In this document: piece by piece, positions 27,366 to 31,336 of the stretch
Layout: each line of letters starts with the position of its first letter
Position numbering within the stretch: the first letter of the stretch is position 1
Assembly: GCF_039649665.1 (NCBI RefSeq)
Contig: NZ_JBDJAW010000014.1
Location: 1 to 64,000, forward strand
Direction of reading: 5' to 3'
Origin: Microbispora sp. ZYX-F-249
Lineage (GTDB): Bacteria > Actinomycetota > Actinomycetes > Streptosporangiales > Streptosporangiaceae
DNA: 64,000 nucleotides
The notes under the pieces: generated by a model
The model's input: only the letters and a program-made list of their open reading frames with translations
What the model was told of the DNA's origin: nothing
The model's database searches: none
Translations under genes and position numbers: made by a program

Positions 27366-27424
27366 CGTAATACAACCAAGGGCACACTGAGCCCTGGAGG
27401 CTGATTCAAGTGCGGGAGGACACG

Positions 27425-28654
27425 GTGAGCACCGACCCGTGGGGCCGGGTAGACGAGGACGGCACCGTCTACGTGCGTACGGCTGAGGGAGAACGGGCCG
27501 TCGGGTCCTGGCAGGCCGGCGAGCCGGAGGAGGCGCTGGCCTACTACCGCCGGAAGTTCGACGAGCTGGCGGGCCAGGTGCAGCTCCTGGAGCAGCGGGT
27601 GCGCGGGACCGACCTCGCGCCGGCCCAGGCGGAGGCGAACATCGCCAAGCTGCGGGAGTCGGTGACCGATGCCCACGCGGTCGGCGACCTCGGCTCGCTG
27701 CAGGACCGGCTGACGGCGCTGAGCGAGCTGGTCGGCAAGCGGCGCGAGGAGCAGCGTGCCGCCCGCGACCAGGCCCGGGCGCACGCGCGCGAGGTGAAGG
27801 AGCGCATCGTCGCCGAGGCCGAGCGGATCGCCGAGGAGACGACGCACTGGAAGTCCGGCGGCGAGCGGCTGCGGCAGCTCGTCGAGGAGTGGAAGGCCGC
27901 CGAGCGGGTCGACCGGGCCACCGAGGCGACGCTGTGGAAGAGGCTGTCCACGGCGCGTACGGCCTTCGCCAAGCGCCGCAAGGCGTACTTCTCCTCGCTC
28001 GACCAGCAGCGTGACGCGGTGCGCGGCACCAAGGAGCGCATCGTGGGCGAGGCGGAGGCGCTGGCGGACTCGACGGACTGGAACGCCACCGCTGCGGCCT
28101 ACCGCGAGCTGATGCGCGAGTGGAAGGCCGCCGGCCGCGCCTCCCGCGAGGTCGAGGACGAGCTGTGGGCGCGCTTCAAGGCCGCCCAGGACCAGTTCTT
28201 CCAGGCCCGCTCGGCGGTCTTCGCCGAGCGGGACGCCTCCTTCGCCGCCAACGCGGAGGTGAAGGAGACCCTGCTGGCCGAGGCCGAGAAGCTGCTGCCG
28301 GTCACCGACGCCCGTGCCGCGCGCACGGCGCTGCGGAGCCTGCTGGAGCGCTGGGAGGCCGCCGGCCCGGTGCCGCGTGACCAGCGCGACCGCCTGGAGG
28401 GCGGGCTGCGCAAGGTCGACGACGCGGTCCGCAGGGCCGAGGAGGCCGAGTGGAAGCGCTCGAACCCCGAGGCCAGGGCCCGCGCCCAGGACACGGTCAA
28501 CCAGCTCCTGCGGTCCATCGGCCAGCTGGAGACCCGGCTGGCCAAGGCCCAGGCGGCGGGACGGGACAAGGACGTCAAGGAGGCGGAGGAGGCCCTGGCC
28601 GCCCGCCGCTCCTGGCTCCAGGAGGCCGAGCGCACGCTCGCCGAGTTCTCCTGA
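27425..28654 (+). CDS. DUF349 coiled-coil protein
   Basis: 409 residues from the GTG at 27425 (GGGAGG 5 nt upstream); GTG at 27410 is an alternative. Almost wholly helical and highly charged. Three DUF349 repeats follow one another at roughly residues 120-190, 200-270 and 275-345, each with a Trp-containing core (LVEEWKAAERVDRATEATLW, LMREWKAAGRASREVEDELW, LLERWEAAG). Function unknown; conserved beside relA in actinobacteria. Convergent with relA across the inverted-repeat element. Confidence 0.88.
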   Translation: MSTDPWGRVDEDGTVYVRTAEGERAVGSWQAGEPEEALAYYRRKFDELAGQVQLLEQRVRGTDLAPAQAEANIAKLRESVTDAHAVGDLGSLQDRLTALSELVGKRREEQRAARDQARAHAREVKERIVAEAERIAEETTHWKSGGERLRQLVEEWKAAERVDRATEATLWKRLSTARTAFAKRRKAYFSSLDQQRDAVRGTKERIVGEAEALADSTDWNATAAAYRELMREWKAAGRASREVEDELWARFKAAQDQFFQARSAVFAERDASFAANAEVKETLLAEAEKLLPVTDARAARTALRSLLERWEAAGPVPRDQRDRLEGGLRKVDDAVRRAEEAEWKRSNPEARARAQDTVNQLLRSIGQLETRLAKAQAAGRDKDVKEAEEALAARRSWLQEAERTLAEFS

Positions 28655-28680
28655 CCATCCTCCCTCCCCGCTCCCCCCTC

Positions 28681-28956
28681 GGCGTGATCTTGTAGTTTGT
28701 CGCACGCCGGGGGGCCGAGCTGGGCAGATACCGTCCGTGATCATGCAGGAGTTCGGCCCGTCTCGCCTTAACCTGGGTGAACAGCATCCGTGATCATGCA
28801 ATGAGGTCAGGACGCCCGGATACGCGCGAGACGATTGCATGATCACGGACAGCGTGTCCGCAGCTCGTTCATGCCGTGAACACGTTCCGTGCAAGATCAC
28901 GGAGTGCGTCCGCGCACGTCGCGCGCCATCCCTGCGACAAACTACAAGATCACGCC
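28681..28956. repeat. Nested inverted-repeat element with six GTGATC(A/T)TG(C/T)A motif arms
   Basis: Left half: A (28681-28704, GGCGTGATCTTGTAGTTTGT...), B (28734-28747, TCCGTGATCATGCA), C (28787-28802, TCCGTGATCATGCAAT). Right half, inverted: C' (28834-28849, exact), B' (28890-28903, one mismatch), A' (28933-28956, exact over 24 bp). Gaps run 29, 39, 31, 40, 29 nt, so spacing mirrors about the centre, yet the gap sequences are not complementary. No coding frame fits. It fills the gap between the convergent DUF349 and relA genes. Confidence 0.93.
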
Positions 28957-28969
28957 CTCTGGAGGAGGG

Positions 28970-31336
28970 TCAGCTGGTCACGCGGTAGACGTCGTAGACG
29001 CCCGCGACGTTGCGCACCGCCTTGAGCACGTGGCCGAGGTGCTTCGGGTCGCCCATCTCGAACGTGAACTTGCTGATCGCCACCCGGTCGCGGCTGGTCG
29101 TCACCGACGCCGACAGGATGTTCACGTGCTGGTCGGACAGGGTCCGCGTGACGTCCGACAGCAGCCGGGGCCGGTCGAGCGCCTCCACCTGGATGGCGAC
29201 GAGGAAGACCGAGTCGTCCCCCGGCGACCAGGCGACCTCCACCAGCCGGTCGGGGTGGGCGCTGAGCTGCTCCACGTTGGGGCAGTTGGTGCGGTGCACG
29301 GAGACGCCGTGCCCCCGCGTGACGAACCCGACGATCTCGTCCCCCGGCACCGGGGTGCAGCAACGCGACAGACGGACCCACACGTCGGGGTCGCCCGCGA
29401 CCATGACACCGGCGTTCGAGTTGGCCCTCAGACGGCCTTTGAGCCGCGTCGGGACCTGGGCCTCGGCGATGTCCTCCTCGGCCCCCTCGACCCCGCCCAG
29501 GGCCTGTACGAGCTTGTCCACCACCGCCTGGGCCGTGATGTGCCCCTCGCCGACGGCCGCGTACAGCGCGGACACGTCCGCGTAGCGCAGGTCCCTGGCC
29601 AGGGCCAGCAGCGCCTCGCCGGACATCAGCCGCTGCAGCGGCAGGCCCTGCTTGCGCATGGCCCGCCCGATCGCCTCCTTGCCCGCCTCGATGGCGGTCT
29701 CGCGGCGCTCCTTGGTGAACCACTGGCGGATCTTGTTGCGGGCCCGGCCGCTCTTCACGAACTTGAGCCAGTCCCTCGACGGGCCCGCGTCCGGGGACTT
29801 CGACGTGAAGATCTCGACGGTGTCGCCGTTGCCCAGGCGGGACTCCAGCGGCACCAGCCTGCCGTTCACCCGCGCGCCGATACATCGGTGACCGACCTCG
29901 GTGTGCACGGCGTACGCGAAGTCGACCGGGGTGGCGCCCTCGGGCAGGGCGATCACCTGGCCGCGCGGGGTGAAGACGAACACCTCCGACACCGACAGGT
30001 CGAAGCGCAGCGACTCCAGGAACTCCCCGGGGTCGGAGGTCTCCTTCTGCCAGTCGAGCAGCTGGCGGAGCCAGGCCATGTCGTTGACCTGCTTGACCTT
30101 GCCGGGGCCCGCCCCGGTCATCTCCTCTTTGTACTTCCAGTGCGCGGCCACGCCGTACTCGGCGCGGTTGTGCATCGCCCGCGTGCGGATCTGCAGCTCG
30201 ATGGCCTTGCCCTCGGGTCCCATGACCGTCGTGTGGAGCGACTGGTACATGTTGAACTTGGGCATGGCGATGTAGTCCTTGAACCGCCCCGGCACCGGCT
30301 TCCACTGGGCGTGGATCGTTCCGAGCGCGGCGTAGCAGTCGCGGACCGTGTCGACCAGGACGCGGATGCCCACCAGGTCGTAGATGTCGTCGAAGGCGAC
30401 GCCCTTGGCGATCATCTTCTGGTAGATCGAGTAGTAGTGCTTGGGCCGGCCGCGGACGGTCGCCTTGATCTTCGCCTCGCGCAGGTCGGCGGAGACCTTC
30501 TCGATAACCTCGTGCAGGAACAGGTCGCGGCGGGGCGCGCGCTCCGACACCATCCGGGCGATCTCGTCGTACCGCTTGGGGTAGAGCATGGCGAACGCGA
30601 GGTCCTCCAGCTCCCACTTGATGGTGTTCATGCCGAGCCGGTGGGCCAGCGGCGCGAAGATCTCCAGCGTCTCCCGGGACTTCTGCTGGCGCTTGTGCTC
30701 GGGCATGTAGCGCATGGTCCGCATGTTGTGCAGCCGATCGGCCAGCTTGATCACCAGCACGCGGATGTCGCGCGACATCGCGACGACCATCTTGCGCACG
30801 GTCTCGGCCTGCGCCGCGTCGCCGAACTTCACCTTGTCGAGCTTGGTCACGCCGTCGACGAGCAACGCGATGTTGTCGCCGAAGTCGGCTCGTAACTCGT
30901 CGAGGCTGTAGGCGGTGTCCTCGACGGTGTCGTGCAGCAGGGCGGCGCACAGCGTCTCGTCGTCGGTGCCCAGCTCCGCCAGGATCGTCGCCACCGCGAG
31001 CGGGTGGGTGATGTAGGGGTCGCCGCTCTTGCGCTTCTGGTCGCGGTGATGATAGGCCGCGACGTCGTACGCCCGCTCGATCAGCCGCAGGTCGGCCTTG
31101 GGATGGGTGGCACGGACCGTCTTGAAGAGCGGTTCCAACACCGGATTCATAGCACCCCACTGCCCCCCGAACCGGGCGAGCCTTCGTCGCGTGGCCGTAG
31201 CCGGCCTGTCCTCCGGGCTCTCCGCCGGGTCGCGCGCCGCGTCAGGGGGCACATCGGCGACGGGCTCGGGGGCGTCGCGGGAGATCACTCCGCGATCGAC
31301 CCGCGCGCTGCCGGGCACGACCACATCACGGGGCAC
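28970..31336 (-). CDS. relA: Bifunctional (p)ppGpp synthetase/hydrolase (RelA/SpoT family)
   Basis: 788 residues from a GTG preceded by GAGGAG. Hydrolase HD domain complete ([17 protein letters not shown], then LLHDTVEDT with His135-Asp136); synthetase domain with [24 protein letters not shown] and IELQIRT; TGS domain ([20 protein letters not shown]); helical/zinc-finger region ([20 protein letters not shown]); C-terminal ACT domain. Both activities are therefore likely. About 60 extra residues precede the conserved start. Confidence 0.97.

Follow-up and report, generated by a model that had tools for sequence, protein, structure and literature searches.

Three arms built on a GTGATC(A/T)TG(C/T)A word face three others between two convergent genes of Microbispora sp. 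ZYX-F-249, raising the question of whether such an element acts as one large hairpin, as a row of protein-binding sites or as a mobile element. We followed it from the window, which is the whole stretch of 64,000 nucleotides that was analysed, into its own genome (G000, 8.78 Mb) and the genomes of relatives, calling genes with our own codon-usage script. The parts of the element and its neighbours are as follows; arms B, C, C' and B' come from a motif search, and box 2, a second conserved word, was read from the sequence.

27410..28654, plus strand: left neighbour, DUF349 protein of 414 aa; the gene ends 30 bp ahead of arm A
28684..28704, plus strand: outer arm A, core GTGATCTTGTA with tail GTTTGTCGCA; the perfect repeat with A' starts at 28681
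28716..28725, plus strand: box 2 between A and B, CGAGCTGGGC; begins 21 bp ahead of arm B
28737..28747, plus strand: arm B, GTGATCATGCA
28769..28778, plus strand: box 2 between B and C, TAACCTGGGT; begins 21 bp ahead of arm C
28790..28800, plus strand: inner arm C, GTGATCATGCA
28836..28846, minus strand: inner arm C', GTGATCATGCA
28858..28867, minus strand: box 2 between B' and C', CGAGCTGCGG; 21 bp from arm C'
28890..28900, minus strand: arm B', GTGATCTTGCA
28912..28921, minus strand: box 2 between A' and B', CGACGTGCGC; 21 bp from arm B'
28933..28953, minus strand: outer arm A', GTGATCTTGTAGTTTGTCGCA; the perfect repeat with A runs to 28956
28970..31150, minus strand: right neighbour, RelA/SpoT-type protein, from the codon-usage gene caller; the gene ends 17 bp past arm A'

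The original prediction described this geometry, and we found it to be accurate. The six arms lie in the order A-B-C-C'-B'-A', A and A' being error-free inverted copies over 24 bp (28681-28704 and 28933-28956), C and C' error-free over 16 bp (28787-28802 and 28834-28849), and B and B' differing at one base (28734-28747 and 28890-28903). The gaps of 29, 39, 31, 40 and 29 nt mirror one another, and the flanking DUF349 gene (plus strand) and RelA/SpoT gene (minus strand), the latter with HD, RelA_SpoT, TGS and ACT domains, are indeed convergent. The window holds eight matches to GTGATCWTGYA with at most one mismatch; the six exact ones all fall inside the element. In 100 dinucleotide-preserving shuffles of the window the motif occurs 0.95 times on average and at most four times, and none of the 100 reaches eight. 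The starts of arms C and C' are 56 bp apart, so that the window copy is without a tight central hairpin. Rfam gave nothing at gathering score for the window element.

Inward-facing arrays of an 11-bp word form a dispersed family, to which the window element belongs. G000 contains 64 blastn matches to the array, and the loci fetched from it yielded 27 arrays; all array counts given here refer to fetched loci, sampled through blast and pattern matches. We also use a named set of 80 loci, kept from at least 120 stretches in a scan of named bacterial genomes, with Planotetraspora, Sphaerimonospora and Microbispora among the matches listed. The mirrored array thus recurs in its own and in related genomes as had been suggested, but the number of arms is not fixed at six. 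The pair pattern GTGATCWTGYA-N40..44-GTGATCWTGYA is present in 15 of 250 genomes of the family, from 6 of 68 genera, and the reversed control gave zero throughout the same 250 genomes; a hairpin-pair pattern is likewise found in 15 of the 250. A looser pattern matched 39 of 394 genomes in a sample of the class, mostly as single matches. The core GTGATC(A/T)TGCA reaches 809 and 828 copies in two Planotetraspora-group genomes, and genomes of three other families, G278, G337 and G396, carry 414, 328 and 90 copies. Across nine genomes with the motif the range is 42-828, the core recurring about every 7-11 kb in G278, G036 and G073. G293, from the same genus as G337, has a single copy against 328, and the Microbispora genomes G003 and G009 have nine each. 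The open-licence literature, judged by titles and the beginnings of abstracts, offered no published description of the family.

The arrays are built on a regular step. Exact arm pairs are 53 bp apart, or about five helix turns, in 41 of 52 cases in G000, 29 of 38 in G010 (13 loci) and 279 of 309 in the named set. Each unit also carries box 2, with the consensus YGACCTGCGC. Exactly one box 2 was recognised in 247 of 368 Microbispora units and in 274 of 383 named units, and it starts 21 bp ahead of the following arm in 243 of the former and 261 of the latter. The distance from arm to box 2 varies between 32 and 34 in Microbispora, where the variation of the step between 52 and 54 bp therefore sits upstream of box 2. 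The tail that follows the core forms a genus dialect: in Microbispora, GTTTGTCGCA on many outermost arms including arm A of the window; in Planotetraspora, a CAGGTTCG-like tail; in G278, ATCCCGCCACCC; and in G337, SATCCTGGG. The step itself is 41 bp in G065. The distant families also contain short tandem rows of arms, in which the step is near-constant within an array and different between arrays (37, 38, 45, 54 or 55 bp in G278, for example at L347 and L348, and 31-33 in G396 at L345), as if the rows grew by local duplication.

The two halves of an array face each other. Among two-sided arrays of Microbispora and the named set, none of 117 has reversed arm polarity, three further arrays flagged as odd proving on inspection to contain stray or palindromic echo arms, and 9 of 9 two-sided arrays in G278 are inward. 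G396 is unlike the two-sided arrays of the other genomes in that 5 of its 29 neighbouring opposite arm pairs point outward and 24 inward. Three arms on each side is the arrangement in 46 of 68 two-sided Microbispora arrays, and named loci have up to six arms per side. The two halves agree in their number of arms in 28 of 48 arrays of the named set, compared with 20.6 expected from within-species shuffling (p 0.009); Microbispora shows no such excess (49 of 68 against 46.8 expected). A further 77 half arrays have no partner in their cluster. We set aside helical phasing of the distance between the halves as evidence, the signal being modest or absent: a period of about 10.8-11 is weakly favoured in Microbispora, there is none at 10.5 in the named set, and a half-turn period of about 5.45 in the pooled sets rests mainly on the common centre values 23 and 34.

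The gene on the outer side of a half is directed into it in 131 of 168 Microbispora halves (36/43 in G000, 25/33 in G002, 18/23 in G007 and 52/69 in G010) and in 90 of 130 halves of the named set. The stop codon, TGA, falls within the GTGATC of the first arm in 47 of the 131 Microbispora halves that abut a 3' end (13 in G000, 9 in G002, 5 in G007 and 20 in G010), and in 16 of the named set. At L044 (compared with the array-free G003, G001 and G013) and at L037 (compared with the array-free G003, G008 and G011) the first arm begins at the native stop, which has the same position in the relatives. Convergent gaps hold 33 of 66 two-sided Microbispora arrays, against 30 of 260 arm-free gaps longer than 60 bp, so the expectation that arrays would always occupy convergent gaps was too strict; divergent gaps hold none of the 66, against 73 of the 260. 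Some two-sided arrays of the named set (four) are divergent. All 16 G278 arrays sampled, which were those from the first 30 plus-strand matches, are intergenic and none is intragenic. A complete gene can lie between two half arrays, and this was seen in more than one species. The genes bracketed at L027 and L237 encode related proteins (208 and 324 aa as called), homologues of which adjoin L084 and L137, and L124 and L154 of Planotetraspora bracket a 618-aa GTPase-like gene, TypA by eye.

The 276 nt of the window element fold much more stably than shuffled sequences do (z -8.61 for RNA, -8.55 for DNA), as a mirrored array must, and co-variation between mirrored arms is more informative about pairing. 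Centres of 22-23 bp are found in 33 of the 68 two-sided Microbispora arrays. In these, the innermost arms are identical at position -2 in 31 of 33 pairs (16.0 expected, p 0.0005, in a pooled test that, like the others here, includes orthologous arrays and is hence non-independent), with weaker co-variation at positions -4, -3 and 7. No tested position reaches p 0.05 in the 64 outermost or the 68 second pairs of Microbispora, and shuffling within genomes leaves the picture unchanged. The signal at position -2 is present in G010 (18/18 against 9.5 expected) and G000 (6/6 against 2.3); it is not significant in the six pairs of G002 and uninformative in the three of G007. In the pooled named set, outer arms and second arms match more often than expected at tail positions; this is mostly a species effect, and of 12 positions examined within species only 23 (outermost, nominal p 0.017) and 15 (second, nominal p 0.018) stand out. 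The tight centre, where present, is a maintained stem. Since consistent co-variation is confined to the centre, the outer arms are best read as separate sites, and RNA pairing between them is rejected. The original prediction had preferred a multi-site array over one simple hairpin; this is supported for the outer arms, whereas innermost arms 22-23 bp apart act as a real hairpin. As a separate observation, second arms of G010 match at position -2 in 6 of 31 mirrored pairs, below the 12.7 expected; the deficit is absent from G000 and G002 and may be chance among many tests.

An intrinsic terminator would be expected to have both a stem with kept pairing and a U-rich tail. Kept pairing is found in the 22-23 bp centres only, and the sequence after the stems is not U-rich, with a median of 3-4 T per 12 nt on the better strand. 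High-GC organisms often lack a U-rich terminator tail. That the whole array is a large intrinsic-terminator hairpin or a hairpin cluster working as RNA, with no protein involved, would fit the very stable 276-nt fold, the co-varying tight centre and the placement at 3' ends, and hairpin clusters have been proposed as terminators in the accessible part of PMC8355165. We nevertheless consider a purely RNA-based role very unlikely: the outer mirrored arms have no consistent co-variation, 77 half arrays have no partner in their cluster to pair with, and a hairpin alone would not be expected to show strict 53- and 21-bp spacing or genus-specific tails.

The constant spacing, the lack of co-variation between outer arms and the dialects instead point to a putative DNA-binding factor, and we think it highly probable that such a factor reads the arms. 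Our preferred reading, held tentatively and somewhat short of an even bet, is that the elements may be site arrays for a putative sequence-specific factor placed around a bidirectional transcription-end hairpin; given the position at gene ends and the hairpin, a role in transcription end or insulation is the most economical one. The factor would occupy arms about five helix turns apart, the bound array and the central hairpin would together form a bidirectional end-of-transcription barrier, serving as terminator or insulator, and a species would keep its arrays or not depending on whether it has the factor. The TTF-I terminator array of rDNA likewise has tandem polar sites downstream of genes. 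Roadblock or architectural arrays of the TTF-I type resemble the present ones in this respect and differ from them in that ours are mirrored and dispersed over the whole genome.

Several observations run against the transcription-end reading. No consensus U-run terminator was called in window positions 28400-29200, and the copy there has no tight centre. Inward halves also occur between tandem genes, where one of the two halves adjoins the start of a gene. In G278 the preference for 3' ends is mixed: the left gene points in at 8 of 16 arrays and the right gene at 8 of 9 two-sided arrays, and both G278 and G337 use several steps beside 53 bp. At L036, a hairpin adjoining the right-hand gene remains beside the array.

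Many arrays recur at the orthologous gap of another species. The 107 arrays of five Microbispora genomes include 28 groups of at least two that share flanks, nearly all between genomes. In orthologous arrays the core is.94-.97 identical, against.57-.89 at spacer positions 22-32; these values leave out pairs with G011, and conservation of the core is inflated by the arms having been found by their core. Together with the 53- and 21-bp spacing, the orthologous arrays support the earlier view that arms and spacing are conserved while the DNA between them drifts. G011 is a case apart. It is tallied as array-bearing, but most of its loci that were checked are without arrays: at seven G000 loci compared, five have none, one a two-arm remnant and one a mutated array. 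Its arrays look less constrained, since their core identity is only.909 (99 sites) despite coding sequence 97.6% identical to that of G000.

Presence is nearly all-or-none among Microbispora genomes that are 94-98% identical, and it does not track a tree of 16.9 kb from 16 genes, in which the array-bearing G002 and G007 are nested among the array-free G008, G003, G009 and G005. The window locus offers a natural experiment: depending on the relative, the gap between the DUF349 and RelA genes contains the complete array, some other hairpin, one reduced pair of arms or nothing. Arrays occupy this gap in G000, G002, G007, G010, G097, G048, G073 and G036 (five and four recognised arms in G073 and G036), each in the dialect of its own group, and a decaying one is found in G011. 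By eye, G003, G005, G008, G009 and G012 carry a different hairpin. G004 and G006 each have just one arm pair, itself reduced; in G065 an arm precedes two overlapping arms that form a pair; and G001, G013 and G014 have none of these. Both genes flanking the gap are 94-100% identical between G002 and G003 in 200-bp bins, and the two gaps have nothing recognisable in common. L037 is the second locus at which array-free relatives carry a different hairpin in the same gap, one that G011, G003 and G008 have in common; at L041 an array-free gene end is common to G011, G003, G008 and G009 (all by eye). Because the array-free state is common to G011 and other relatives at L037 and L041, the array seems to have arrived there in the G000 line. 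That dozens to hundreds of precise, phased arrays are present in an almost all-or-none manner in closely related soil actinobacteria suggests a dedicated reader.

Two further readings explain the patchiness better than the transcription-end reading does. One, which we regard as unlikely, is that of a non-autonomous mobile element with two inward multi-site ends and a usually near-empty middle, which a trans-acting recombinase would insert near stop codons and which would be missing where a species has no recombinase. Inward polarity (0/117 reversed, 9/9 in G278), halves that can bracket genes, the stop codon within the first arm of 47 of 131 halves and the apparent recent gains at L037 and L041 relative to sister species all fit it, whereas the 5 outward pairs among 29 in G396 do not. 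Copy-and-paste within a genome left no sign: spacers are unrelated in 703 comparable within-genome pairs from four genomes (mean identity.612, the closest pair reaching.83 over 47 positions), and this also excludes the shared interior of a MITE or insertion sequence. No target-site duplication, a check suggested with the original prediction, was noticed at the array-free loci inspected by eye, the gap being replaced and not interrupted, and genes between halves do not look transposase-like by eye. PF01797 (Y1_Tnp), the sole transposase family searched, is missing from 8 of 12 array-bearing genomes (G000, G010, G036, G073, G065, G278, G337 and G396) and present in the other four (G002, G007, G011 and G097) and in 5 of 9 array-free genomes, on which ground a REP/RAYT system is rejected. 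The accessible part of PMC3733652 describes REP/BIME elements as dispersed, extragenic, inverted and mostly downstream of genes in convergent or unidirectional gaps. The arrays share with them dispersal, extragenic and inverted placement mostly downstream of genes and in gaps of these two kinds, and absence from some relatives, and differ in consisting of arms at a 53-bp step, REPs being single palindromes. The REP/BIME unit, a 20-40 bp palindrome with a GTAG or CGTC tag, does not describe them: the arm is non-palindromic, and the only GTAG is the one within the TTGTAG that many outer arms of Microbispora carry, the other dialects seen having none. MITEs are similar in their inverted ends (24 bp perfect in the window element), shortness and intergenic placement; they differ in that array interiors are not common to copies in a genome, no recent copies are found among those compared, and no duplicated target was noticed. 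A CRISPR array, with direct repeats on one strand and unrelated spacers, does not fit the inverted halves and the spacers that hold the conserved box 2. A phage or plasmid origin was rejected, the plasmid and phage searches giving no match; two IMG/VR contigs match the pair pattern (GC near 0.43, only that pair at full score), and no hairpin match was found.

The other reading, to which we likewise give little weight, takes the arms as self-DNA words of a DNA exchange system similar to the DNA uptake sequences (DUS) of Neisseriaceae and the USS of Pasteurellaceae. A surface or translocation protein would prefer arm-bearing DNA, recombination would spread array alleles within a dialect, and inverted pairs would be reused as terminators. 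Neisserial DUS, in the accessible part of PMC2397512, are mostly intergenic, often form inverted pairs in terminators and occur once every 1.2-1.5 kb. The arrays resemble DUS and USS in having a short core of many copies (42-828), inverted pairs at gene ends able to act as terminators, dialects between relatives (here by genus) and patchy presence, which is near all-or-none between sister species and does not track the 16.9-kb tree. Array-free alleles also look homologous across species by eye, orthologous arrays partly share spacers, and apparent gains have no close source within the genome. All 21 genomes tested have a ComEC-family gene, array-free ones no less than the others, so that it does not discriminate. 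Where genome pairs of array-bearing species were compared, the identity of their flanks showed no increase close to arrays, as exchange would lead one to expect, so that recent exchange among the sampled species is not seen; donors may lie outside the sample. In G278, G036 and G073 cores are about 7-11 kb apart and hence sparser than DUS, none of the 16 sampled G278 arrays is intragenic, and the arrays are multi-arm with mostly inward polarity and fixed 53-bp steps, of which the accessible part of PMC2397512 makes no mention for DUS.

A broader interpretation, doubtful though not far-fetched, is that the arms may be address words of a horizontally unstable, genome-wide nucleoprotein system in Actinomycetota, whose factor would mark self DNA or gene ends and which would be switched on or off almost wholesale between sister species. 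We know of no self-DNA signal in this phylum, of which the arms would possibly be the first of an uptake or exchange type. The reader, if real, could be named by comparing sister genomes, and would be a new kind of end-of-transcription or chromosome-boundary factor, or else part of a self-DNA signal.

Related words occur in other arrangements. G064 has 241 copies of GTGATCWTGCA, yet the patterns applied detect a single 53-bp pair and no tight hairpin in it, so its arms are differently arranged. In Streptomyces coelicolor, CTCTCCGTGATCATGCACCC near SCO5864 is given as an ArgR site in the accessible part of PMC5839063. The 17-bp tandem repeats GTGATCGTGCAGAGTTC (G528:C714:18602) and GTGATCCTGCGCGGGGC (G029:C7:2261194) resemble the arm repeated head to tail.
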